Source: a virus
IMG/VR virus record: IMGVR_UViG_3300028535_000182
Span: 1-44,443 of that record
Strand: one strand, 5' to 3'
DNA length: 44,443 bases
Shown: positions 4,432-25,611 of the stretch, piece by piece
Layout of the letters: every line of letters begins with the position of its first letter
How positions within the stretch are numbered: the stretch's first letter is position 1
The notes under the pieces: generated by a model
The model's input: only the letters and a program-made list of their open reading frames with translations
Told to the model about the DNA's origin: nothing
Databases searched by the model: none
Made by a program: the position numbers and the translations under genes

Positions 4432-5520
4432 ATGAAAAGATTTATTCCATTCATACTAATTTTATTGTTTTCTACGGTATCTTTCGCAGGACATCTAGAC
4501 TCAAAATGGGAAAGAACATTTAATAGTGTTGTTTTGGTTACTAGTGAAACAGTTTTAACAAAAGCGCCAATAACGGAGCCAGTACCGGATATTTTTGAAA
4601 ATGGTGAGCCTAAACAACCACCACCTTTTCAATCACCAAAATCAATTTTGCCCAAGTTTGTTATGGGAACAGGGTTCTTTATTAATGAAATTCATGTAGT
4701 AACAAATTATCATATTATTAAAAACTTTGATAAAATTAAAATATACGCATATAATCATCCGTTTGAAATAACAGATGTTAAGTTAGTAGGATATGATGCA
4801 GAAATTGATATTGCAGTATTAGAAATCGGAGAAACGGTTGTTCATGATGTTCTTAAATTTTCTAAAGTAGCACCAAAAGTTGGAGATACTGTTTATGCAC
4901 TAGGCCATGGATTAAATCAAGTTTGGTCATTAACAAAAGGCATCTTGAGTTATGATTATAGAAGAAACCCAAATACTAGTTTTGTTCATTATATTCAAAC
5001 AGATGCAGTTATAAATTCAGGAAACTCTGGAGGACCATTACTTAATGAATCCGGTGAAGTATTAGGAGTCAACACTTTATTAATCTCACCAGACAAGTAT
5101 TATGTTGGGTATGGTTATGTAATACCAACTCTATTAGTAGAGCGAGCCGTAAATCAAATTTTGGCAACAGGTACACACGTTAAACCATCAATTGGTATTG
5201 TGATGGGTATTGTTGATGACAAAGAGAAATACAAAAAACTTTTATCTACAAATGTAAAGCACTATTTAGAAGTTAAAGAAGTTATGCCAGATTCCCCAGC
5301 ATTTCTTTTTGGGGTACAAGCAGGCGATATAATAATTTCAATGGATGGGCACGACATTCAAGTAATGCCTAATGTAATTGAAACGTTATGGAAAAGATAC
5401 CCGGGCGATACAATAACCATGAAAGTTTATAGGAATGGCGAATATTTTTTAATTGATGTAGTACTTGGAAAAGCCGAACCTGTAAAAGCAGATGTTTTGC
5501 CGTTCGGTGATACCGAATAA
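4432..5520 (+). CDS. Secreted HtrA/Deg-type serine protease with one PDZ domain
   Basis: A Sec signal peptide (about residues 1-19, ending SFAG) leads into a trypsin-fold domain with the full triad: His94 in TNYH, Asp126 in AEIDIAVL and Ser199 in GNSGGPL. A single PDZ domain follows at about 255-350 (MPDSPAF, GVQAGDII, PGDTITMKVYRNG). It is 362 aa, shorter than two-PDZ DegP and like DegS or one-PDZ HtrA. It should act in the periplasm on misfolded or envelope proteins. A proline-rich insert (PFQSPK region) lies before the protease core. A bacterial-type housekeeping protease is unusual in a phage. Confidence 0.85.
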   Translation: MKRFIPFILILLFSTVSFAGHLDSKWERTFNSVVLVTSETVLTKAPITEPVPDIFENGEPKQPPPFQSPKSILPKFVMGTGFFINEIHVVTNYHIIKNFDKIKIYAYNHPFEITDVKLVGYDAEIDIAVLEIGETVVHDVLKFSKVAPKVGDTVYALGHGLNQVWSLTKGILSYDYRRNPNTSFVHYIQTDAVINSGNSGGPLLNESGEVLGVNTLLISPDKYYVGYGYVIPTLLVERAVNQILATGTHVKPSIGIVMGIVDDKEKYKKLLSTNVKHYLEVKEVMPDSPAFLFGVQAGDIIISMDGHDIQVMPNVIETLWKRYPGDTITMKVYRNGEYFLIDVVLGKAEPVKADVLPFGDTE

Positions 5521-5523
5521 GTA
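5517..5523 (+). promoter_or_regulatory. Late-like box ATAAGTA
   Basis: Overlaps the protease stop codon and lies 5 nt before the ATG at 5529 (context ATAAGTATTAGCATG). Confidence 0.4.
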
Positions 5524-5528
5524 TTAGC

Positions 5529-5618
5529 ATGAAGTTTTACATAATATCAGGATTACTGATGATAGGATTCTTTTTGTTTCTATATATGTTATGGTTACAA
5601 GGAACTCCGGTAGTTTAA
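5529..5618 (+). CDS. Membrane microprotein, 29 aa
   Basis: A single hydrophobic helix (YIISGLLMIGFFLFLYMLWL) followed by QGTPVV. It follows the HtrA gene by 8 bp and has its own late-like box. It resembles the array members at 783-1896. Function unknown. Confidence 0.45.
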   Translation: MKFYIISGLLMIGFFLFLYMLWLQGTPVV

Positions 5619-5630
5619 TAATAACTTTAC

Positions 5631-5659
5631 TTGACATAAAAATAAATTAATATTATAAT
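5631..5659 (+). promoter_or_regulatory. Consensus sigma70 promoter
   Basis: TTGACA (5631-5636), a 17-nt spacer and TATAAT (5654-5659) match the consensus perfectly. The predicted start is at about 5666-5667, the first base of the tRNA-like RNA. Confidence 0.8.
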
Positions 5660-5666
5660 AAGAATT

Positions 5667-5798
5667 GCGGTCTTGGCGGAACTAGGGAGACTTAGATAGC
5701 ATAGACGCGATGGGTTGCTGGCACGAAGTTAGTGTTATTACATTGGAAATTCATCCGTTCGCGAGAACGTAAGGGTTCAACCCCCTTAGACCGTACCA
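5667..5798 (+). ncRNA. Noncanonical tRNA-like RNA with Leu-type ends and an enlarged core
   Basis: Acceptor strands GCGGTCT (5667-5673) and AGACCGT (5788-5794) pair over 7 bp with one G-T, followed by ACCA. The T arm AAGGG/CCCTT around TTCAACC is intact, and CGTTC-GCGA-GAACG is a long variable arm. The 5' part TGGCGGAAC is like tRNA-Leu. At 132 nt it is about 45 nt longer than a tRNA with a long variable arm. GATGG...TCATC could close an anticodon stem over a 30-40 nt loop that holds a further hairpin (TGGCAC/GTGTTA). No clear anticodon can be assigned. It could be an intron-bearing or degenerate tRNA-Leu, or a tRNA mimic; it is too short and lacks motifs for tmRNA. Confidence 0.55.
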
Positions 5799-5813
5799 TA
5801 GGGCCAAAGACCC

Positions 5814-5841
5814 ACCTGGCGTCGTCTTGGTGACGCCAGGT
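5814..5841 (+). terminator. Strong hairpin after the tRNA-like RNA
   Basis: ACCTGGCGTC (5814-5823) pairs perfectly with GACGCCAGGT (5832-5841) around an 8-nt loop. There is no T-run afterwards, so it may be a processing or 3'-protecting structure rather than a classical intrinsic terminator. Confidence 0.5.
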
Positions 5842-5859
5842 TAAACATCCTGGTAGTGG

Positions 5860-5888
5860 TTGACAATTTATTAGTTTTAAAGTAATAT
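5860..5888 (+). promoter_or_regulatory. Sigma70 promoter of clpP
   Basis: TTGACA (5860-5865), a 17-nt spacer and TAATAT (5883-5888). The -10 ends 6 nt before the clpP ATG, so the mRNA would start at about the start codon (leaderless). The host polymerase could read it early. Confidence 0.7.
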
Positions 5889-5894
5889 TAAATT

Positions 5895-6497
5895 ATGGGT
5901 TCACTAGTTCCAATAGTAATTGAGCAAACAAGCAAAGGAGAAAGATCATACGATATATTTTCTCGCTTGTTAAAAGACAGAATAATAGTACTCGACGGAC
6001 CAATTGAAGAACACACGTCATCTATTTTATGTGCCCAGTTGCTATTTTTAGAATCGCAATCACCCGCAAAAGATATTGTGATTTATATAAATTCCCCCGG
6101 TGGATCTGTTACAGCCGGAATGGCGATATATGATACTATGCAGTATGTTAAATCAGATATACAAACTATTGTTATAGGACAAGCCTGTTCCATGGGATCA
6201 CTATTATCGTCGTCCGGTACTAAAGGAAAAAGACTTATCCTACCCCATGCACGACATATGATACACCAACCCTTAGGTGGAGCAAAAGGACAAGCAACAG
6301 ATGTACAAATTCAAGCAAACGAACTCTTAAGATGGAAAAAAGAACTTACAAAAATTTACGAAAAGCACACTGGCCAAACATATAAAAAATTAGAAGAAGA
6401 TATGGAACGTGACAACTATATGACTGCAGAAGAATCAATTAAGTATGGGTTAGCAGACAAGATTGTTTTCAGCAGAGAAGAAGATAACAAACTATAA
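5895..6497 (+). CDS. clpP: ATP-dependent Clp protease proteolytic subunit
   Basis: Full-length ClpP of 200 aa. The N-terminus ([19 protein letters not shown]) matches the family's processing region. The triad is complete: Ser99 in GQACSMGS, His124 in MIHQPLGG and Asp173 in ERDNYMT. The oligomer-forming motif [11 protein letters not shown] is also present. It should form a tetradecameric barrel and needs a ClpX or ClpA ATPase, not seen here, so it probably works with host unfoldases. It could help remodel the host proteome or mature particles. It has its own sigma70-type promoter and almost no leader. Confidence 0.93.
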
Positions 6498-6525
6498 TTT
6501 ATAGACGGTTTAAGGAACAATTTTA

Positions 6526-6744
6526 ATGCCAGCAGACAAACCAAAAACTAAACGTCCTTATACTAAAGTAAGAATGGTTCCTGAAGATTCTAAAATGAAA
6601 GATCATGGATATTATTATTATGCATTTAAACCTGGTAAAGGTGAAAAGAAAAATCAAAAATTAAAAATGCGTAAGTATGATCCCATCACACGTAAACATA
6701 TTTGGTGGGTAGAAAAGAAATTACCCCCACATAGTAAAAATTAA
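6526..6744 (+). CDS. Ribosomal protein bL33-like
   Basis: 72 aa and very basic. Residues 45-66 (KLKMRKYDPITRKHIWWVEK and on) closely follow the bL33 signature of a KYDP turn, RKH and a terminal E-x-K strand. The preceding YYYYAFKPGKGEKK fits the first bL33 strands. A normal bL33 is about 50-55 aa; this one has a lysine- and proline-rich N-terminal extension of about 20 residues. bL33 sits near the E site of the large subunit. The gene follows clpP by 28 bp with an AAGGA ribosome-binding site. Ribosomal proteins are known in some viral genomes; incorporation into host ribosomes is inference. Confidence 0.6.
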   Translation: MPADKPKTKRPYTKVRMVPEDSKMKDHGYYYYAFKPGKGEKKNQKLKMRKYDPITRKHIWWVEKKLPPHSKN

Positions 6745-6757
6745 ATAAATAATTTAC

Positions 6758-6780
6758 TTGCGAATGCGTACTATTCGCAA
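6758..6780. other. Perfect inverted repeat before the iron permease gene
   Basis: TTGCGAAT (6758-6765) and ATTCGCAA (6773-6780) flank a 7-nt loop. It lies 12 bp before the permease ATG and has no T-run, so it could be an operator or a weak terminator of the clpP-bL33 transcript. Confidence 0.4.
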
Positions 6781-6792
6781 TATACTAACATT

Positions 6793-7383
6793 ATGACAGG
6801 AACATTAGCACCGACATTTATTTGGTTTAGAGAAGGCCTAGAAGCATATCTAATAGTACAGATGGCTTGGCTGATGGTAACCAATTATAGACAAAAAATA
6901 ACAATACTAGGATCAACAGCATTAGCACTTGTTTGTGCAATAATATTAGGATACTTTGCTCAACAGTTTATTGCAAATGATTTTGAAGCAGTAGAAGGAT
7001 GGACGGCACTTGCCGCCTCTGGATTATTGTTTTGGACAGCATGGTTTTGTCATGGAGTAGTACAACACACAAAAACTATTCAAGATAATTTAAAAAGTAA
7101 CGGACCAATACTAGCATTAGCATTAATTGTATTCCTTACAGTGTTTAGAGAAGGTGCAGAGATTGTAGCATTCCTTACAGCATTAATGTACGCAGGTACA
7201 TCTGTAATGAGTATTAGCATGGGTGCTGTGTTTGGATTGGGTGCCTTGCTTATAGTTGGTATGGTAGCATCAAAACAAATCAAAAAAATTCCAATTGCTA
7301 AAATATTTAGAACTAGTCGTTGGATATTCACTGCATTAGCAGTTTACTTCTTATATTACGGTATTCACGAATTATTAGAATAG
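6793..7383 (+). CDS. FTR1/EfeU-family iron permease, compact
   Basis: Hydrophobic throughout, with both hallmark iron-binding motifs: REGLE at residues 13-17 and REGAE at 119-123, each inside a transmembrane helix. In the family these acidic residues pass ferric or oxidised iron through the inner membrane. Roughly six helices fit in 196 aa, against about 270-280 aa for EfeU. An acidic loop (NDFEAVEG, 62-69) may be periplasmic. No EfeO or EfeB partner is nearby. As a phage gene it would be an auxiliary iron-uptake function. Motif evidence is strong; transport by the short form is inferred. Confidence 0.75.
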   Translation: MTGTLAPTFIWFREGLEAYLIVQMAWLMVTNYRQKITILGSTALALVCAIILGYFAQQFIANDFEAVEGWTALAASGLLFWTAWFCHGVVQHTKTIQDNLKSNGPILALALIVFLTVFREGAEIVAFLTALMYAGTSVMSISMGAVFGLGALLIVGMVASKQIKKIPIAKIFRTSRWIFTALAVYFLYYGIHELLE

Positions 7384-7384
7384 A

Positions 7385-7564
7385 TTATCTAAATCGATTA
7401 AAAGGCCAATTAACAGGCTCGTCGATAGGAGTTTTTTCTTTTTTTTTCTTTTCCACAGGTTCAATTTCGTACGGGTCGGGTCCACCCCAGCCATGGTCGT
7501 CATCACGGATTACGCAATTACTTCCGGCAAAATTATTAATTTCTTTTTCTTTTTCGTCTGTCAT
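7385..7564 (-). CDS. Small acidic/basic hypothetical protein, 59 aa
   Basis: Charged N-terminus (MTDEKEKEINNF), a conserved-looking centre CVIRDDDHGWGGPDPYEIEP, a lysine run and an ending PVNWPFNRFR. No membrane segment. It converges on the iron permease with a 1-bp gap. An AATAAATAG box lies about 18 nt upstream of the ATG. Not recognised. Confidence 0.55.
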   Translation of the reverse strand: MTDEKEKEINNFAGSNCVIRDDDHGWGGPDPYEIEPVEKKKKEKTPIDEPVNWPFNRFR

Positions 7565-12957: not shown

Positions 12958-13032
12958 GCCGGAGTGGCTCAACGGTAGAGCAATTGATTTGTAATCAATA
13001 GGTTGGGGGTTCGATTCCCTCCTCCGGCACCA
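12958..13032 (+). tRNA. tRNA-Thr(TGT)
   Basis: Complete cloverleaf: acceptor GCCGGAG/CTCCGGC, D stem GCTC/GAGC, anticodon stem ATTGA/TCAAT with loop TTTGTAA giving anticodon TGT for ACA codons, and T arm GGGGG-TTCGATT-CCCTC. The discriminator base A and CCA are encoded. A-ending codons are frequent in this AT-rich genome, so it could support late translation. A weak TTGATT-18-TAATAT promoter lies upstream. Confidence 0.93.
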
Positions 13033-13797: not shown

Positions 13798-14823
13798 CTA
13801 AAACGATACTGGAGATATTGAATATCGGCGTTTGAGTAAGGATATTATATAAGAACCATTGTCTATGTTTGCTATTTCTTTGCCCCACACATTTATCCAT
13901 TTATTTAATTTTTGTTTATCACTGTCTGGTAGATGTCTTATAGATAGTTTATCCGGGTGAACTAATGGTATTATATCCCAACCTAATCTATTTTTATTCT
14001 TAATGTTTAATTTTTTTTGCCAGTACCAATCACCAAGTTTGTCTATGTTACTCCAGCCTTTGTTATGTAAAGTAGTGTATATAAAAATATCGTAATTTGT
14101 ATTCTGAATAATATCGTCAACAAAGTTATCAATCTTATTCCAGTCAGCACCTTCACGCACAATAGAATTAAGATCTCCAAATGCATCAATACTAACTGAA
14201 ATTTCTACATTACGACATTGTTTAAATATTTTATGATCTTCTTCTGTTAATAAAAAATGACCATTAGTTGTATATTCTAGTTCAAGATTTTTTAGTGAGT
14301 CATTATCTATTGTTTGCAAAATTTTTCTATGACTGCTCGTCATGAAAGGCTCACCGCCCATGAATTTTATTTTTCTAATAGTACTAGGTAAGGTAGGTAA
14401 CTTTGGCAGTATTTTAATTCCTTCTTTAGAAGGCTTATCAGGATTACTTTTTGTCCATTTGGCACTACTAAACTCTCCTAAACACATTTCACAAGTTAAG
14501 TTGCATATGTTATTTGGATAAATTTCTATGTCTTGAAGTTCTACTTTTGCGTCTGGATACATAGAATTAAACCGCATACGCAAACTTTTTTTGCCGTGTT
14601 CTTCTTCTGAATAACATTTTGAACACGTAGCAATTTTCTCCCCACGATTAGTTTTTTCTCTTATTTCATTATACTCTTTACTGTGTAGTAAGCCATTTAG
14701 ATCCCCATCAAATTGTTTAATTGCTATATCAGATCTACAACAAGCATGAACTTTTCCATCAAAACGTATGTTGGTATGCTTGTAAAAAGCGGCACACGTG
14801 GTCTTGTTTGTAGATATTGTCAT
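13798..14823 (-). CDS. Radical SAM protein with N-terminal cysteine cluster
   Basis: The radical SAM [4Fe-4S] motif CNLTCEMC has cysteines at 107, 111 and 114, with the GGEP SAM-binding motif at about 156-159. Before it lies a second cysteine set (C10, C28, C29, C67, C70), as in the twitch/SPASM-like arrangement where an auxiliary cluster precedes the core. 341 aa. It is similar in design to the protein at 19133. Substrate unknown; peptide or sugar modification are both possible. A CTTAAATA box lies 5 nt upstream. Confidence 0.8.
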   Translation of the reverse strand: MTISTNKTTCAAFYKHTNIRFDGKVHACCRSDIAIKQFDGDLNGLLHSKEYNEIREKTNRGEKIATCSKCYSEEEHGKKSLRMRFNSMYPDAKVELQDIEIYPNNICNLTCEMCLGEFSSAKWTKSNPDKPSKEGIKILPKLPTLPSTIRKIKFMGGEPFMTSSHRKILQTIDNDSLKNLELEYTTNGHFLLTEEDHKIFKQCRNVEISVSIDAFGDLNSIVREGADWNKIDNFVDDIIQNTNYDIFIYTTLHNKGWSNIDKLGDWYWQKKLNIKNKNRLGWDIIPLVHPDKLSIRHLPDSDKQKLNKWINVWGKEIANIDNGSYIISLLKRRYSISPVSF

Positions 14824-14828
14824 ATCAA

Positions 14829-14836
14829 TATTTAAG
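14829..14836 (-). promoter_or_regulatory. Late-type promoter box CTTAAATA
   Basis: Lies 5 nt before the radical SAM ATG at 14823 on the minus strand. Confidence 0.5.
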
Positions 14837-14879
14837 TGATCCTCCCCCCTGGTCTACCATTTAATAATAACTACTATAC

Positions 14880-15176
14880 ATGAAGCGGTTTTTTACTTTA
14901 CAATTAAAAGGGTATAATGAAAATGTACCAATTGACTTTGCAAGAAGTCTTATAGTAGACGAATCTCCATTTGTAAAATATCTATCCGATAATAATGCTC
15001 TTGCTATACGCCATATGAAATCTAGAGCCACAATGGAGTTATATGGGGATCCAAGATATCTTATACTAGCAAAAATAAAATATGGTAAAGTATTGTCGGG
15101 TAAAATGAATTTTATTGAACTTTTTATTTCACATCAATTGCAAAGAAAAATGATTCAAAATTTTACAACCCCTTAA
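14880..15176 (+). CDS. Hypothetical protein, 98 aa
   Basis: Begins MKRFFTLQLKGYNENVPIDF and is mildly basic with no membrane segment or known motif. It is divergent from the radical SAM gene at 14823 and abuts the convergent gene with no gap. The AT-rich upstream ACTACTATAC resembles the promoter context at 11447. A role with the neighbouring radical SAM enzymes is possible but unproven. Confidence 0.45.
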   Translation: MKRFFTLQLKGYNENVPIDFARSLIVDESPFVKYLSDNNALAIRHMKSRATMELYGDPRYLILAKIKYGKVLSGKMNFIELFISHQLQRKMIQNFTTP

Positions 15177-15371
15177 TTATTTTTTATTAGGATTAGTTAG
15201 TAAATCTAAAGTTATTATTTTATGAATTGGAACAACTACGTTGTTTCTTTCTTGCTCTAATTTTTTACGGAATTTCCGGGCATCGGATTTTTTTCGCAGG
15301 TCTTCCTGCTTTTGTTGTTTGCGAAACGATCGCTCTCCACGTTGAGACTTATAAGTGTGGTGTATTCCCAT
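15177..15371 (-). CDS. Small basic hypothetical protein, 64 aa
   Basis: Highly charged helix (RGERSFRKQQKQEDLRKKSD, then ARKFRKKLEQERNN) followed by a hydrophobic tail (VVVPIHKIITLDLL). AGGAAA precedes the ATG. It lies 23 bp downstream of the radical SAM gene on the same strand. It could be its partner or a nucleic-acid-binding protein; it has no obvious RiPP leader. Confidence 0.45.
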   Translation of the reverse strand: MGIHHTYKSQRGERSFRKQQKQEDLRKKSDARKFRKKLEQERNNVVVPIHKIITLDLLTNPNKK

Positions 15372-15394
15372 AATTTTCCTAACATATCTATATG

Positions 15395-16375
15395 CTACTT
15401 ATCTTTAAATTTTGTGGCTAATTGATCAAAACCGTTTCTGCATACACTCTTTGAACACGTCCACGCCTCTTGTTGCCATGTTACATTTTGTTTAAGTACA
15501 TTACCAATCCGGCCACCTTGTCGGCACCAACCACGCCATACCCATCCTTTATTATCTACAATAAATTGGTCTACTCCTGCGTTACATTTATAACCTTCGA
15601 AGTTCCAATTCTTTGCTATTTTACCAGATTTTTTATCTAATGTTTCTCTAGTTAAGTCATGTCTTGCTCTGCTTTGCCCATCATATTCTAAATTTCCAAA
15701 ATACATAGTTTGTTCTGGATCCCAATTTTCTCCTCGTTCTTCAAAGTAATATTTTAATTGATATGTTTTGTATGGTAAGAATTGAAACCCTTTAGTAAAA
15801 TTAGAATATAATAATTTTAATTCAATTGGATATCCTTTGGCTTTAAATATTTCATATGTGTGTATAGCAGTATTCCATTGCTCATCATCATGTGTGCAGT
15901 GCATCATTATTCTAGTTTTTACTTTTCTATCATTATTATAATCTTTTTGAGACATTAAAAAGTCTACAACGTTTTCAATATGTTGTTGGTTCGCCCACTC
16001 TGTATGATAACTTATTTCAACTAAAGAAAAATAATGATAATGTTGTTTCCACCATTCCATTGATGCTGATCCATTTGTAACTAATCTGTTTTTTAATTGT
16101 CGATTACCCATACGTTGACACATAGCAAGTAGGCCCGGATTTAATGTAGGTTCTCCGCCAACAAATTCAAAAGCAGGAGCACGGTCTAACATTCGTAAAG
16201 AAGAAACAGTGTATTGAATAGCATTGGCAAGAATTTCTGCCTCTCCAAATTTAACTTTACTAGAATGCAGAATTGTTGGACAATACGAGCAGTCGTAGTT
16301 GCAGACATTACCAAATAGCCATTGGATACGAGTAGTCGTCATTTCTTGGTCGGTCATTATATCGTATTTAAACAT
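15395..16375 (-). CDS. Radical SAM protein with C-terminal cysteines
   Basis: CNYDCSYC (C25, C29, C32) starts the radical SAM barrel, with GGEPT at 73-77. A C-terminal group (YKCNAG, RGWCRQGG, WTCSKSVC) suggests an auxiliary iron-sulfur site of SPASM type. About 326 aa from the ATG at 16375; an upstream ATG at 16414 would run into the divergent gene's start. It differs from the twitch-type paralogues by having the extra cysteines after the core. Substrate unknown. Confidence 0.8.
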   Translation of the reverse strand: MFKYDIMTDQEMTTTRIQWLFGNVCNYDCSYCPTILHSSKVKFGEAEILANAIQYTVSSLRMLDRAPAFEFVGGEPTLNPGLLAMCQRMGNRQLKNRLVTNGSASMEWWKQHYHYFSLVEISYHTEWANQQHIENVVDFLMSQKDYNNDRKVKTRIMMHCTHDDEQWNTAIHTYEIFKAKGYPIELKLLYSNFTKGFQFLPYKTYQLKYYFEERGENWDPEQTMYFGNLEYDGQSRARHDLTRETLDKKSGKIAKNWNFEGYKCNAGVDQFIVDNKGWVWRGWCRQGGRIGNVLKQNVTWQQEAWTCSKSVCRNGFDQLATKFKDK

Positions 16376-16383
16376 TTTATTAT

Positions 16384-16391
16384 TGTAAATA
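16384..16391 (+). promoter_or_regulatory. Late-type promoter box TGTAAATA
   Basis: Lies 8 nt before the ATG at 16400 and inside the short divergent gap with the gene starting at 16375. Confidence 0.45.
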
Positions 16392-16399
16392 TAATTGAA

Positions 16400-18283
16400 A
16401 TGAACAAGCATCAAAACGTATTATTGCTTCACGTTCCAAATATAAGTTTAGTTGGTAGAAGGTTTTATAATGATATTAATGCCGGAGGTATAACATTTTC
16501 TGGCGGTCTTGAAGCAACAGGAAATATAGTTGATCAGTATGACTTAAATGCAAAATTGAACACCTATAGAAGAGAAGTTTCTGATTTTAGTATGTCAGAT
16601 AATGACTTAAAAACATTATTAGATATTGAATTGTTAAACGAGTATTTAGAAGGTCAAGTAGCAGTCAACGGTTCAGTTGCTTTTGAAAATAAAGAAAGAT
16701 ACATTAATATACAGTCAATAGGATTTGGAGATTTATATGATGATATGGTTGAGTTGGAGCATGATAGTAATTATTCCATATTACCATTTTTAACAAAGTA
16801 TTTGTTGAACGGAATTGATTTTAACAAATATGATTGGATTGGATTATCTGTTACTCGTAGAGGACAACAACTCTGGATGTTAAGACTTACATTACATTTT
16901 TCGTTATTACTAACATCGTACATTAAACAAAATTTTAATGGAAATATATACATTGGTGGTAATACTGTCTTAGATAAGTCAGATGCAAAACATTTAATAA
17001 AAATTTATAATACAATTAATGTAAAACATCAGCCAACAAGTTTTGTTCGAGGATATGCAGAGTCCGGAATGGAAAAGTTTATTAAATCTGAAAAACCGCT
17101 TCAGAAGTATTCTTTTAAAAATACAAACGAAATACAAGTACAACACGAATATCAATTTCAGCATATGAATTACCCAAAAGTAACTTTTGAAAATAATGAT
17201 GATGTATTAGCAGATCCAAAAGAATTTATAAATTCTAAAATGTTAGCAAAGTATACTAAATTAGAAACAGTTGAGCCTTTTCAACTATATCCATATAAGT
17301 TTAGTGAAGGCTGTCGATTTAAATGTTCGTTTTGTTCAATGGCAACAGTAGATGGATTTTCTGTACTTACACCAAAACAAACAGTTGATCATTTGGAAGA
17401 AATGGGAAATCATGGAGCCAAGCATTTTAGATTTTTTAATGATCAAATTAATTGGAAAAAAACATGGTTACTTGATTTTTGTAATGAGATTGTTAAAAGA
17501 AATTTAAAAATTACTTGGAACGATTCTGCAAATTTACGACTTGCCACTGCAGAAATATATAGTGCAATGAAAGAAGCAGGGTGTATTAAGTTGTGGTATG
17601 GTACAGAAACTATTGTAGACGAGACGTTAGCATTAATTAGAAAGATGATAACAAAAGATAAAATCATAAAAAATTTAGAACTTGCCCACGAGCACGAGAT
17701 TTATAATTGTTGTAATTTTATTTTTAATTTTCCATGGGAGACAGATGAACATTTCGCAGACTTGCTAAAATTTGAAAAGAAATATGTAGGAAATAAAGTA
17801 ATTAATGCATATCAAAATAATGCGTTCTGTGTGCAAAAAGGAGCCGAGTATCTAATGAACCCCGCAAAGTTTAAAATAGAAATACTTGAACAAGATGCTT
17901 TAGTTTGGGACCAGATTCATTATAATGAAGTTGGTGGTAAACAATGGGATGAAATAGTAAAAGATGCTTGGAGGAAGTCAGAAGTTCTTAATGAGCAAGG
18001 AAACCTTTGGTCGTTTGAAGTTAAAGAGATAAGAGCAAATGATTTTATTTTAACAGCATTACATAAAGCAGGTTACACATTTAAAGAAAAATTACAATTT
18101 TATGATGATGTTGATAAAACATTAACTCACGAAGAACTTATTTTGTGGGCAAAACGTATAGGAACAACATCATATCAGTTGCCAAGAAAAGTTCGTAAGC
18201 AAGTTGCAAGAATTGAAAAATGGAAAAAAATACATAAAACTTCTGCGATAGTAATAACACCAAAAGCAGATTACGAAAAATAA
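16400..18283 (+). CDS. Large B12-binding-type radical SAM enzyme
   Basis: About 627 aa. The first 230 residues resemble a cobalamin-binding Rossmann-like region (YDWIGLSVTRRG and NGNIYIGGNTV), without a clear DxHxxG motif. The radical SAM core follows with CRFKCSFC (C305, C309, C312) and downstream GTETI and FNFPWETDE as in B12-radical SAM proteins. The ATG at 16400 is chosen over one at 16322 because of the promoter box and the start of homology-like sequence. It overlaps the convergent PLP-type gene by 13 bp. Likely a methyltransferase or ring-forming enzyme; substrate unknown. Confidence 0.75.
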   Translation: MNKHQNVLLLHVPNISLVGRRFYNDINAGGITFSGGLEATGNIVDQYDLNAKLNTYRREVSDFSMSDNDLKTLLDIELLNEYLEGQVAVNGSVAFENKERYINIQSIGFGDLYDDMVELEHDSNYSILPFLTKYLLNGIDFNKYDWIGLSVTRRGQQLWMLRLTLHFSLLLTSYIKQNFNGNIYIGGNTVLDKSDAKHLIKIYNTINVKHQPTSFVRGYAESGMEKFIKSEKPLQKYSFKNTNEIQVQHEYQFQHMNYPKVTFENNDDVLADPKEFINSKMLAKYTKLETVEPFQLYPYKFSEGCRFKCSFCSMATVDGFSVLTPKQTVDHLEEMGNHGAKHFRFFNDQINWKKTWLLDFCNEIVKRNLKITWNDSANLRLATAEIYSAMKEAGCIKLWYGTETIVDETLALIRKMITKDKIIKNLELAHEHEIYNCCNFIFNFPWETDEHFADLLKFEKKYVGNKVINAYQNNAFCVQKGAEYLMNPAKFKIEILEQDALVWDQIHYNEVGGKQWDEIVKDAWRKSEVLNEQGNLWSFEVKEIRANDFILTALHKAGYTFKEKLQFYDDVDKTLTHEELILWAKRIGTTSYQLPRKVRKQVARIEKWKKIHKTSAIVITPKADYEK

Positions 18284-19146
18284 ATTTTTGCAAGATAAAA
18301 AAGAGCATCGCGAGTAGGCACTGCCCGAATAATTTTACCATTATCGTCTGTTGCAAAGGCAACGTGTATTGCAGGTGAAGGTTTTAGATTAGGACATACT
18401 TTTATTATTGTATCATAAAGTTTTCCATATTTCTTCCAAAAGAAATCAGTACCAAATTTATTCATTAGTTCGATACCAGAAATTATATTTGTTATTGCAA
18501 AAAAATCATTGTTGTTCATAAATTCAACAGGTCCATTAATTGGTTGTCTTGCATATCGTATACCACATCGTTGTTCACTTATACCAAATGCTTTGCTTAA
18601 ACTAAAACTTATTGTTTGTATTGCTGGGTGATCAACGTTGAAATTAATTCCTTTACTGCAAGGATACCATGCGGCATCCAAGTGAACAGGAATATTTTCT
18701 TGCAAACATTTTTCTAAAATTTGAGACATTTCAGGATGTATGCTATAAGTGTGACAACAAAAAGGAGCAGACATTAATAATACATCTCCATTAATTAATG
18801 TATCTATTGTACGTTTTTTTATATTTGGATATATTGTTTCATGATAAAAAAAGTCGCCTTCGAATATAACAACACAGTTTGGATTTGTTATGTAAATGTC
18901 ATTAATGCTTTGTGTTACACCAAATATAACTTTTCTATCTGGAAATGTATCAAGACCAGTAAATGAAATTAATTCATGATTGTGTATCCATTGATCGAAT
19001 ATTTTTTTGAAGTCGTCAATTAAATTATTACGCCATTGGTCACTATAATTAATCATACTTAGAAATTGAATAATTTCTTTGTCCTTCATTGGACGTTTGC
19101 GTTTAGCATTTCTATCGATTAAAGAATTTAATTTATTTGTATCCAT
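18271..19146 (-). CDS. PLP-dependent aminotransferase-fold enzyme
   Basis: 291 aa with the fold-type I signatures: an aspartate for the pyridine nitrogen in PVHLDAAWYPC (D157) and the Schiff-base lysine in SFSLSKAFGISE (K185), followed by an Arg-rich strand (QRCGIRYARQ). It is shorter than the usual 350-450 aa, lacking part of the small domain. It overlaps the upstream radical SAM gene by 14 bp, so they are coupled. It could aminate a sugar or amino acid precursor made by the island. Confidence 0.65.
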   Translation of the reverse strand: MDTNKLNSLIDRNAKRKRPMKDKEIIQFLSMINYSDQWRNNLIDDFKKIFDQWIHNHELISFTGLDTFPDRKVIFGVTQSINDIYITNPNCVVIFEGDFFYHETIYPNIKKRTIDTLINGDVLLMSAPFCCHTYSIHPEMSQILEKCLQENIPVHLDAAWYPCSKGINFNVDHPAIQTISFSLSKAFGISEQRCGIRYARQPINGPVEFMNNNDFFAITNIISGIELMNKFGTDFFWKKYGKLYDTIIKVCPNLKPSPAIHVAFATDDNGKIIRAVPTRDALFYLAKIYFS

Positions 19147-20533
19147 TTTGTTCCATCATTAGTTTAATATGTGGTGCATGATCTTGTAATCTTTTTTTAC
19201 GTATTCCGTTAAGCCAATTAATATAATCACAAGCAAGTTTAATCATGCTTTGAGATGGCTCAGATTTATGATGAACATGGGTGTCCCCTTCATATAAACT
19301 ATCTTTAATATTATCAAAATCTGGTTTGTTGATGCCTAGTGTATTTTCCTGATTATAATCAGAAACAGGAATTTCATGATTTGAAAAACTATCAAAATGA
19401 ACCAATTCCTGATAACCATCTAGATAATTTTCTGGTACAAACCATTTCCCTACTTCTGCGTATACACTAGTTGTCCACTTTTTTTTAAATGTAGGCAAAG
19501 TCATATAAGCATTCATCCATGGTTCCATTACTACATTAAATGACATAAGATACTTTGTTGCTTTAGATTCAAATCTAGAAAAATAAGAAACAATATCATT
19601 TAGATGCATTATGTTATAAAGGCTTACTGTTACATTAATGTCTAACATTTTTATACTTGGCATTTTCATTAGTTGTATAATATTTTCATTTACACGTTTC
19701 CAACTAAATCCTCTTATCCATTCGTATATTGGTCCTATTCCGTCTATACTAAGGTTAAGTTCTAAGTTTGAGAACTTGCTTAATATACTTCTCATTTTGA
19801 GACTAATGGTTGTTGCATTGGTAACAATTATTAATTTCACGTCTGGATTTAATTTACTAATACGATCTAAAAAAGCAATACAACGTTTGTCATATAAAGG
19901 TTCACCACCTTTAATCATTATAGATTCGTAGGTTTGTATATTGTCAATAATTGAATCAATAAAACGTTGATTTAAAATATAAGATTGAAAAGGCTCGTGC
20001 GGTGTACCCCACGGTCTACCATATATAGGAGATATTCTATCTTTTAATGTTTGTGGCATTAGTTTCTCTTGTTGCATCCATCCTGAACTGTGAGTACGAT
20101 TACACATAGCACAGGCCAGATTGCAGGTATTACTAAAGTTTAATTCAATTGCTTTTAGTTTTGGTTTATACTTTTGGCAAAATTCATCAGTTAATTGTTG
20201 ACGTTTAATTGGTGCTGGAGTATTAATAAAATATCTTTCAATTTTTCTCTGGCGTTGACTTCTTATTCCGCTTTCTTCTTTTTTATAACATACTTCGCAA
20301 GACTCGTTTCTTTCTCCCTTGCTCATTTTTTCTCTTATTGAGGCTAGATGTTTACTGTCAAAAAGTTGCGGAGCAGTCTGGGTAGAAGTTTTCATATCAG
20401 CAATAGTATGTCCTGGGTGTGTATTCCAGCAAGGACAAGGTTGTGCTTTTCCTGTTGGGTCCACAGTTAGTCCATCAAAAGGATAAAAACACCAAAAATC
20501 TTTCTTAGTTTGTTTTTTAGTTTGCATTTTCAT
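19133..20533 (-). CDS. Radical SAM protein with N-terminal cysteine cluster, long form
   Basis: CNLACAMC (C137, C141, C144) and GGEPL define the radical SAM core. An N-terminal set (C15, C33, C35, C79, C82) mirrors the protein at 13798, so these are paralogues. A C-terminal extension of about 100 residues has no cysteine pattern. 466 aa. It is coupled to the downstream PLP-type gene. Substrate unknown. Confidence 0.8.
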   Translation of the reverse strand: MKMQTKKQTKKDFWCFYPFDGLTVDPTGKAQPCPCWNTHPGHTIADMKTSTQTAPQLFDSKHLASIREKMSKGERNESCEVCYKKEESGIRSQRQRKIERYFINTPAPIKRQQLTDEFCQKYKPKLKAIELNFSNTCNLACAMCNRTHSSGWMQQEKLMPQTLKDRISPIYGRPWGTPHEPFQSYILNQRFIDSIIDNIQTYESIMIKGGEPLYDKRCIAFLDRISKLNPDVKLIIVTNATTISLKMRSILSKFSNLELNLSIDGIGPIYEWIRGFSWKRVNENIIQLMKMPSIKMLDINVTVSLYNIMHLNDIVSYFSRFESKATKYLMSFNVVMEPWMNAYMTLPTFKKKWTTSVYAEVGKWFVPENYLDGYQELVHFDSFSNHEIPVSDYNQENTLGINKPDFDNIKDSLYEGDTHVHHKSEPSQSMIKLACDYINWLNGIRKKRLQDHAPHIKLMMEQNGYK

Positions 20534-23311: not shown

Positions 23312-24643
23312 ATGTGTGGAATAGTAGGAATATATAACGTTCCTGAAGCCTCTAAAATTGCGGCCTTAGGAATTCATGCCTTGCAACATAGAGGACAAGA
23401 AGGTGCGGGAATTATTTCATACAATAAACAATTTCATACTCATGGCGGGTATGGACGTGTCGATCATATTTTTGGTAGTGACAAAGTTATAAAAAATCTT
23501 CCTGGTGACATAGCAATTGGACACGTTAGGTATAGCACCACTGGAGGCACTGGACAAAATAATGTTCAACCTTTATTTTATAATTTAGACTTTGGTGGCT
23601 TTGCTATTGCTCATAATGGTGACTTTACTGATTCTGCATATTGGAGAGATAAACTATCCAAAGAAGGTGCAATATTTCAAACGTCAACTGATACAGAAAT
23701 TATTCCACATTTAATTGCTCGAACAAAAGGTATTGATCCTGTGGATCGCTTACTTACAATATTGAATAAAGTCAAAGGTGCATTTAGTATAGTAGTATTA
23801 ATGGATAATAAATTAGTTGTTGCTCGAGACCCACACGGCTTTCGACCTTTAGTTATAGGTCAATACGAAGATGGATACGCAATAGCATCTGAAAGTTGTT
23901 CACTTGATTTAATTGGTGCAACAAATATTAAAGATGTTGAACCTGGTACAGTAATTATATTCGACAAGGAAAAAAAGGAAACGTTTTATTTAGATAAAAA
24001 AGTTACAAAACATTTTTGCATATTTGAACATATCTATTTCTCAAGACCTGATTCTGTTATTGATAATCAATTAGTATACGATGTTCGTAAAAGAATAGGT
24101 GAAGAATTAGCAAAAGAAACTTATGTTGAATCTGATATGGTTGTTCCTGTACCTGATTCTGGTATGGTATCTGCACTTGGATATGCTAAACAATCTAAAA
24201 TACCATTTGAATTAGGACTTACACGAAGTCATTATAGAGGAAGAACATTCATTGAACCTACACAAAAAATACGAGACTTAGGTGTAAAATTAAAACATAG
24301 TGCTATGAGATTGTTCAAAGATAAAATAGTTACCGTCATTGATGATTCTATTGTACGAGGAACTACATCTAAAAAAATTATAAAAATGATACGAAAAGCA
24401 GGTGCTAAAAAAATACATATGCGTATATCATCTCCTCCTGTAACTGGATCATGCCATTATGGTATTGATACTCCAAACAGAAAAGAACTTATAGCCGGAG
24501 AGAGTAACGTAAAAGAAATCAAAGAATTTATTGATGCTGACTCATTAGAATACATTTCAATTGAAGGGTTGCATAAAGCCATGAAAAGTAAAGGCTATTG
24601 CGATGCTTGTTTCACAGGTAACTATCCTGTTAAAAAACAGTAA
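23312..24643 (+). CDS. purF: Amidophosphoribosyltransferase
   Basis: Commits PRPP to purine synthesis by making phosphoribosylamine with glutamine as nitrogen donor. Cys2 is the glutaminase nucleophile (MCGIVGIYN), and the PRPP loop VTVIDDSIVRGTTS is at 340-353. Cysteines at 236, 381, 430 and 433 match the [4Fe-4S] ligands of the Bacillus-type enzyme. 443 aa, apparently complete, although the propeptide is missing. No other pur gene is present, so it may boost the host pathway at its control point. Alternatively its phosphoribosylamine could feed the neighbouring enzymes. Confidence 0.93.
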   Translation: MCGIVGIYNVPEASKIAALGIHALQHRGQEGAGIISYNKQFHTHGGYGRVDHIFGSDKVIKNLPGDIAIGHVRYSTTGGTGQNNVQPLFYNLDFGGFAIAHNGDFTDSAYWRDKLSKEGAIFQTSTDTEIIPHLIARTKGIDPVDRLLTILNKVKGAFSIVVLMDNKLVVARDPHGFRPLVIGQYEDGYAIASESCSLDLIGATNIKDVEPGTVIIFDKEKKETFYLDKKVTKHFCIFEHIYFSRPDSVIDNQLVYDVRKRIGEELAKETYVESDMVVPVPDSGMVSALGYAKQSKIPFELGLTRSHYRGRTFIEPTQKIRDLGVKLKHSAMRLFKDKIVTVIDDSIVRGTTSKKIIKMIRKAGAKKIHMRISSPPVTGSCHYGIDTPNRKELIAGESNVKEIKEFIDADSLEYISIEGLHKAMKSKGYCDACFTGNYPVKKQ

Positions 24644-24647
24644 TCGG

Positions 24648-24675
24648 TTGCAATATTACAAAGATATAATATAAT
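24648..24675 (+). promoter_or_regulatory. Sigma70-like promoter before the synthetase-like gene
   Basis: TTGCAA (24648-24653), a 16-nt spacer and TATAAT (24670-24675). A CATAAATA late-like box (24678-24685) follows directly. Transcripts from either would pass the hairpin at 24696 before the next gene. Confidence 0.5.
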
Positions 24676-24695
24676 AGCATAAATACAGAAAAGAG

Positions 24696-24722
24696 TTTTG
24701 CCTTTAATGGCAAAATTTTTTT
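24696..24722 (+). terminator. Rho-independent terminator or leader attenuator
   Basis: TTTTGCC and GGCAAAA form a 7-bp stem around TTTAAT, followed by seven T. It terminates purF transcripts, but it also lies between the 24648 promoter and the next gene, so it could act as an attenuator. Confidence 0.7.
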
Positions 24723-24753
24723 GGTTAAATTTTTTTTGACAGGAGGAAAGAAA

Positions 24754-25611
24754 ATGACGCAACTAATAAATCCTAGACAGTTTACTAACATCACGGGCCT
24801 ATTGAGGTCCTTTTTTTTGGCTAAAGGCTTTCTAGAAGTACACACCCAAAATAGATTAAGCATACTAGCGGCGTGTGAAGATCCAACAACAGTATCAACG
24901 TACAACTACTCAGGGCAGGTATGGCCTTTACCACAAACGGGCCAAATGTGGCTCGAGTACGAATTACTTAATGACCTTGCTTCGCCAGGGTTCTTTTGTG
25001 TTTCCACGTCCTATAGGCAAGAACCAAATCCTATAGACGGTAGACACGATTTAATATTTCCAATGTTTGAATTCGAGATGCCAGGCACAGTACGTGATTT
25101 GGAAGTCTTAGAACGAGAATTAGTTCAGCATTTAGGATTTTGTAACTATAATGAAGTAGTAGACAAGAACTACATTGATTGGTGTAAAGAGTATAATGTA
25201 GACGAACTAACGCATATTCATGAAGGCTTAATGTGTAATAACAATCAAGTATGCATGATTAAAAACTTTCCAAATAATACAAGTCCATTTTGGAATATGA
25301 AACAAAACGGTGATGGCACAGCATCTAAGATAGATGTTATTATAGGTGGAATGGAAACGATAGGTTCCGCAGAACGTTCAAGTGATCCGGAGGAAATGCG
25401 TAAACAATTTCATACTATAAGCAATGGTATGTACGCAGAATTATTATACGGAAGGTTCGGCAAGGAACGTGTAGAACAAGAACTTGAAGAATTTTTAAGT
25501 TATAATTTTATTCCTAGAGTTGGCGGAGGAATTGGTTTAACTAGATTAATAAGTGCAGTTAAGGGGTCAGCAAAACATTTTACGCAAAAAACTGCTAACG
25601 CATTTATATAA
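24754..25611 (+). CDS. Class II aminoacyl-tRNA synthetase-like catalytic domain (Asp/Asn type)
   Basis: 285 aa from an ATG with a strong AGGAGG site; a TTG at 24721 is inside the terminator and is rejected. Motif 2 appears as STSYRQEPNPIDGRHDLIFP and motif 3 as GGGIGLTRLIS, as in the AspRS/AsnRS subclass. An N-terminal anticodon-binding domain is missing. Stand-alone domains of this type include asparagine synthetase A-like enzymes and EpmA-type modifiers, so it may make asparagine or charge a non-tRNA substrate. It faces the helicase gene convergently. Confidence 0.65.
   Translation: MTQLINPRQFTNITGLLRSFFLAKGFLEVHTQNRLSILAACEDPTTVSTYNYSGQVWPLPQTGQMWLEYELLNDLASPGFFCVSTSYRQEPNPIDGRHDLIFPMFEFEMPGTVRDLEVLERELVQHLGFCNYNEVVDKNYIDWCKEYNVDELTHIHEGLMCNNNQVCMIKNFPNNTSPFWNMKQNGDGTASKIDVIIGGMETIGSAERSSDPEEMRKQFHTISNGMYAELLYGRFGKERVEQELEEFLSYNFIPRVGGGIGLTRLISAVKGSAKHFTQKTANAFI
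24795..24818 (+). terminator. Terminator-like hairpin inside the synthetase-like coding region
   Basis: GGGCC (24795-24799) pairs with GGTCC (24806-24810) around TATTGA and is followed by eight T. It is 41 bp inside the gene. With the hairpin at 24696 it makes two terminator-like signals in about 120 bp. The T8 run also is a possible slippage site. Confidence 0.45.

Follow-up and report, generated by a model that had tools for sequence, protein, structure and literature searches.

A minimal FTR1-family permease gene of large phages, accompanied by iron-sulphur assembly genes in several relatives

Iron limits microbes across much of the sea, and marine phages bring genes for phosphate uptake or photosynthesis with them. 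Among permeases, those of the FTR1 family (PF03239) are known from the efe-type operons of E. coli, Pasteurella and Listeria. The phage protein described here is homologous to them over 190 residues and resembles them in its two REGxE motifs and in its repeated three-helix halves, and it has the core fold region and motifs in common with EfeU of the EfeUOB ferrous iron uptake system. What appears to be new is not the FTR1 family, which is known, but its minimal phage form and the iron-sulphur (Fe-S) assembly operons of that form; in the open papers searched, neither a phage FTR1 permease nor any iron permease among the auxiliary genes of phages came to light. SAR11 genomes with FTR1 have a Fur box ahead of that gene (PMC4771312), and the SAR11 FTR1 genes (HIMB058, HIMB114) resemble the phage gene in having a palindromic element just 5' and in their marine setting. 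Phage replication has been linked to host iron, as proposed here, both for pelagiphage HTVC027P, which is reported to induce host iron uptake genes, and in the Ferrojan Horse hypothesis (PMC12753301).

The gene lies in a virus record of 44,443 bases, referred to below as the window (the whole stretch of DNA that was analysed), which encodes a DnaB-type helicase, a primase and a UvsW-type helicase and contains a weak virion-protein match. Counterparts of the UvsW-type protein in the jumbo phages Phosso, Atu_ph07 and PA5oct share 51-54% identity with it, and nine of 12 related records also have the gene; the ClpP of Atu_ph07 is 60% identical to the ClpP neighbouring the window FTR1. A capsid or terminase gene was looked for in the window and not found. 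In a related record that bears FTR1 (G006), a gp23 capsid gene of the T4 type (E = 3e-83) occurs together with a terminase. The window represents part of the genome of a large tailed phage, and the phage origin put forward in the first-pass annotation is upheld by these flanking genes and by the several independent contigs that carry FTR1. The marine setting of these large phages, a view taken over from that annotation, is probable. A single tRNA, tRNA-Thr (TGT), was found in the window, at 12958-13032, and positions 23312-25611 span a glutamine amidotransferase/phosphoribosyltransferase-like (PurF-like) gene with a class II aminoacyl-tRNA synthetase-like gene next in line.

An ATG opens the reading frame of 196 codons, both ends of which fall exactly at the limits listed in Table 1. 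The Pfam FTR1 profile matches residues 5-196 of the protein with E = 1e-11 and 45.1 bits against a cut-off of 25.3, confirming the family to which the gene had initially been assigned, and a search of the PHROG families gave no match. Purifying selection is evident from dN/dS values of 0.09-0.18 overall (0.12-0.18 for the window, L002 and L003; 0.09-0.11 for L004, L006 and L007), and the frame is therefore no chance ORF. Both REGxE motifs recognised at the outset do fall inside predicted transmembrane helices, 1 and 4, of this compact protein, and in a profile comparison the first half of the protein matches the second REGxE region, an internal repeat of three-helix halves.

Helices are predicted at residues 2-28, 32-86 (read as two passes), 105-133, 138-163 and 168-195 in a structure model of middling quality (mean pLDDT 66.9) built with 10 sequences, a first model having reached a pLDDT of 48.5. 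The six-helix arrangement anticipated by the first-pass annotation is thus consistent with the helix prediction. Its fold is not confirmed, since a search of the second model against PDB and viral libraries gave no meaningful match (best E values 0.2 and 0.5); a solved structure related by sequence to the protein was looked for and none was found. Loops 1-2, 3-4 and 5-6 are basic and loop 2-3 is acidic, charges which suggest that the N-terminus lies outside, that both REGxE sites are intramembrane and that the Cys-His-x4-His motif lies near the cytoplasmic side.

Table 1. Features of the FTR1 locus (window positions)
Feature	Position	Strand	Basis
FTR1-family permease gene, 196 aa, six predicted transmembrane helices	6793..7383	+	Pfam match, dN/dS, structure prediction
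REGLE motif, residues 13-17, helix 1	6829..6843	+	REGxE invariant in all aligned phage and cellular copies
REGAE motif, residues 119-123, helix 4	7147..7161	+	REGxE invariant across all phage copies
Phage-typical Cys86-His87-x4-His92 motif where helix 3 ends, predicted to face the cytoplasm	7048..7068	+	18/18 phage copies, 0/7 cellular copies
Palindrome TTGCGAAT-GCGTACT-ATTCGCAA, candidate operator, Fur-box-like	6758..6780	.	Conserved in relatives
Sigma-70-like promoter TTGCGA-N17-TATACT, overlapped by the palindrome	6758..6786	+	Conserved geometry
Mobile cassette, 91-93% identical to L002/L003, unrelated flanking genes	6743..7393	+	DNA comparison
bL33-like ribosomal protein gene, upstream neighbour	6526..6744	+	PF00471, E = 5.6e-7
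ClpP-family protease gene, conserved FTR1 neighbour in related phages	5895..6497	+	Profile match

The narrower label 'EfeU-type' given at the outset does not stand. Against the NCBIfam EfeU equivalog (NF041756) the protein scores 56.1 bits where the cut-off is 255, and the EfeU/Ftr1 model also falls far under its own cut-off, so that 'FTR1 family' is right and 'EfeU' unsupported; identity with EfeU was rejected on the equivalog score together with the missing seventh helix. The phage protein stops soon after helix 6, whereas seven cellular FTR1 homologues, all from plasmid records, run 52-62 residues further, with a further hydrophobic segment past this point in the two that were checked. No EfeO or EfeB domain was seen among the scanned genes of the window, which is a fragment with some small ORFs outside the scan. 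As the protein has neither the seventh helix nor the partners that EfeU has, activity is not to be presumed. Cys86 is missing from all seven cellular homologues sampled, and a tree places these apart from all phage copies with support of 100/99, albeit on long branches and with a small, plasmid-borne cellular sample. Small FTR1 forms may exist in cells beyond these homologues; two scans of genome contigs with narrow peptide patterns found no cellular relatives of the phage FTR1.

Successive searches of IMG/VR returned eight close relatives (61-93% identity), then 12 and, with broader alignments, 25 other contigs encoding the small form. These represent about 17 further distinct phages, giving 18 with the window once near-copies are merged. 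All phage copies are 194-237 residues long, and all 18 have the Cys-His-x4-His motif after helix 3 and lack a seventh transmembrane helix. GenBank 'phage' matches in Listeria, Staphylococcus and faecal records, which are unannotated and in some cases resemble host DNA, were left out as support.

The DNA identity between the window and L002/L003 is confined to the cassette while the flanks differ, indicating that FTR1 moved together with its promoter region. Upstream of the gene, bL33 preceded by ClpP in the window is replaced by bL12 in L003, where an unknown gene, NrdB, NrdA and a tail-spike-like gene, with homologues in L002, lie on the 3' side. FTR1 is exchanged between unrelated phage neighbourhoods with its promoter-overlapping palindrome. 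Located in phages, forming its own predicted transcription unit, exchanged between phages and under purifying selection, the gene has the character of a moron or auxiliary gene. Genes for an HtrA-like protease, ClpP and bL33 are consecutive at window positions 4432-6744, just 5' of FTR1, and bL12, FTR1, NrdB and NrdA share a single phage neighbourhood at L003:9555-15809.

The palindrome ahead of FTR1, TTGCGAATGCGTACTATTCGCAA, is the sole site in the window within three mismatches, and its general form is TTGCGAAT-N7-ATTCGCAA. As the -10 element of the promoter it overlaps ends 6 nt before the ATG, the FTR1 mRNA is probably leaderless. Promoter-like matches are common by chance (five found against 4.5 expected in that kilobase), and the weight therefore lies on conservation: the geometry of promoter and palindrome is kept in L002, L003, L004, L006, L007 and L068, while intergenic DNA farther upstream diverges. 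In its arms and 7-base spacing the site equals the 19-bp Fur box GATAAT-N7-ATTATC, and its right arm, ATTCGCAAT, is that of the mapped feoAB1 operator of Magnetospirillum, bound by an alphaproteobacterial Fur (PMC4506495). In this comparison spacing, position and right arm fit, the middle hexamer agrees only partly, and genes other than FTR1 also follow the site.

Indeed, the exact palindrome also stands directly 5' of genes for membrane proteins of 48 and 61 residues in the same phage lineage. The conserved 48-residue one-helix protein (MSFLLHELMELGLLISAIAVTWAVPRPEW...), for which a Pfam search gave no match, follows it directly at L018:2884-3030 and likewise in L085, L087, L033, L045, L079 and L044. 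At L068:1279-2712 the palindrome is followed by the 61-residue protein, whose opposite-strand neighbour is a phage isocitrate lyase (PF00463, E = 4e-105). Palindromes similar to that of the FTR1 promoter occur upstream of packaging-type genes in unrelated phages; Fur-box-like examples (e.g. TTGCGATTGATAATCATTCGCAG) lie near small-terminase-like genes at L113:1664-1730, L115:1315, L122:10183 and L110:5185. Returning to the FTR1 palindrome itself: This palindrome 5' of FTR1 is absent from the phages with Fe-S operons, from more distant FTR1 phages and from L008/L009. The exact palindrome occurs in 75 contigs, 55 of which hold one site in two orientations; the palindromes of this set of 55 were judged unrelated, the two examined sitting inside a DNA methyltransferase gene. 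In L136 a 7-1-7 palindrome ahead of FTR1 was dropped, as it lies within the preceding coding sequence. An Rfam scan of the window matched only a tRNA and no known riboswitch.

In seven of the 18 distinct phages Fe-S assembly genes are found a short way downstream of FTR1, in the form of Nfu with a SufT-like gene, a SufT-like gene alone or an A-type carrier. FTR1 is followed directly by Nfu-like and SufT-like genes, with ClpP further on, in L145, L147, L148, L151 and L152/L153. The Nfu-like proteins match PF08712 and PF01106 (E = 1e-27 to 1e-23 for the two tested against Pfam) and the SufT-like proteins PF01883 (E about 1e-16); in L145 and L148 the FTR1 stop overlaps the Nfu start by one base. 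At L145:5618-6480 the operon reads FTR1, Nfu-like, SufT-like and then ClpP, and L147, L148, L151, L152 and L153 are laid out alike. A SufT-like gene is located between FTR1 and ClpP in L008/L009, 1.3 kb 3' of FTR1, whilst L133/L146 have an A-type carrier (PF01521, E = 1e-8) directly 3' of FTR1 and a ferredoxin upstream. The stretch L133:2023-7634 comprises ferredoxin, FTR1, the A-type Fe-S carrier and ClpP, along with weak GroES-like and Asp/Arg hydroxylase matches. SufT is reported to be important under high Fe-S demand (PMC4982691). Two other distinct phages (L003 and, with homologous genes, L002) have genes for iron-dependent class I ribonucleotide reductase 3' of FTR1. Nfu and SufT-like genes were sought in the window itself and not found; at least four of its genes have radical SAM matches. 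The radical SAM cluster spans window positions 13798-20533, with at least four genes in 7 kb, some with SPASM domains.

Taken together, the sequence evidence makes it fairly probable that the phage gene is an auxiliary gene importing iron for iron- and Fe-S-dependent enzymes in infection. The moron would encode a stripped-down FTR1 iron permease, produced during infection and inserted into the host inner membrane with its N-terminus outside. Iron would be conducted inward by the paired glutamates of the REGxE motifs in helices 1 and 4, and the Cys-His-x4-His motif typical of the phage copies may, from the cytoplasmic side, assist in passing it on. The added iron would supply the class I ribonucleotide reductase, radical SAM enzymes and 2-oxoglutarate oxygenases of infection, with Fe-S assembly genes co-operonic with FTR1 in several relatives. 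In the phage group of the window, the gene's own promoter and a palindrome that a host Fur-family metal sensor may read would lead to expression under iron shortage. Protection from iron stress, the other role raised by the first-pass annotation, is less well supported than import, because the operons of relatives hold Nfu, SufT-like or A-type carrier genes. A broader picture is possible and is put forward tentatively: diverse large, probably marine phages would carry an iron-supply module, composed of a minimal phage-specific FTR1 with Nfu, a SufT-like protein or an A-type carrier and in one group placed under a host iron-sensing repressor, that tops up iron and Fe-S cofactors in iron-starved cells.

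Several other explanations of the locus must be weighed against iron import. Some relatives of FTR1 act on other metals, lead being one, and the phage subfamily's own Cys-His-x4-His motif could change specificity; the protein might then be of FTR1 type but transport a different divalent metal, or might export metal and so ease metal stress in infection. This is unlikely given the unaltered REGxE motifs and, in relatives, neighbouring Fe-S assembly and ribonucleotide reductase genes that point to iron demand. A degenerate, inactive remnant of a permease could instead be suspected from the missing seventh helix and partner proteins, but purifying selection, a uniform length and invariant motifs over about 18 phages, and a conserved promoter region of its own make this a quite improbable reading. 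More improbable still is host contamination, with FTR1 a bacterial gene brought in through mis-binning of the contig: although neither a capsid nor a terminase gene was found in the window, phage replication genes lie on the same contig, gp23 and terminase accompany FTR1 in a related record, and the presence of FTR1 on many independent viral contigs, in phage contexts, disfavours it.

A different alternative accepts the permease as real and takes its control to be unrelated to iron, the palindrome being a phage operator or transcription signal ahead of several membrane-protein cargo genes. We give this nearly an even chance, since the site is found again 5' of unrelated small membrane genes and at a hotspot for cargo behind ClpP-bL33, could fold as an RNA hairpin and, in the phages with the 48-residue protein, has a middle hexamer that mismatches the Fur hexamer in sequence. 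However, there is one copy per phage fragment, which argues against a general phage promoter; the L006 spacer AGTTAGC is the reverse complement of GCTAACT in L004, as fits the site of a symmetric protein; and L004 has lost the hairpin. A Fur-like repressor of the host may plausibly control FTR1, at somewhat under an even chance, the presence of the palindrome ahead of small uncharacterised membrane genes counting against it.

If the protein imports iron, these phages actively draw iron in, beyond recycling that of the host, and infection is tied to iron cycling; the FTR1 gene, its promoter and the Fe-S partner genes are short and hence directly testable in bacteria. Compared with the FTR1 permeases of efe-type operons, the phage form, at 196 residues and located in phages, lacks the seventh helix and any fused EfeO-like or cytochrome domain and gains the Cys-His-x4-His motif. 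With 56 against 255 bits, and neither EfeO nor EfeB seen, it is by these tests no member of the EfeUOB system. The SAR11 FTR1 genes, compared by description, are cellular and have boxes of 7-1-7 form, whereas the phage site is 8-7-8. Like the phosphate and photosynthesis genes of marine phages, the phage FTR1 is a metabolic gene with its own promoter that has moved between phages. Finally, where HTVC027P and the Ferrojan Horse hypothesis involve the induction of host transporters or tail proteins that hold iron, the permease here is encoded by the phage itself.
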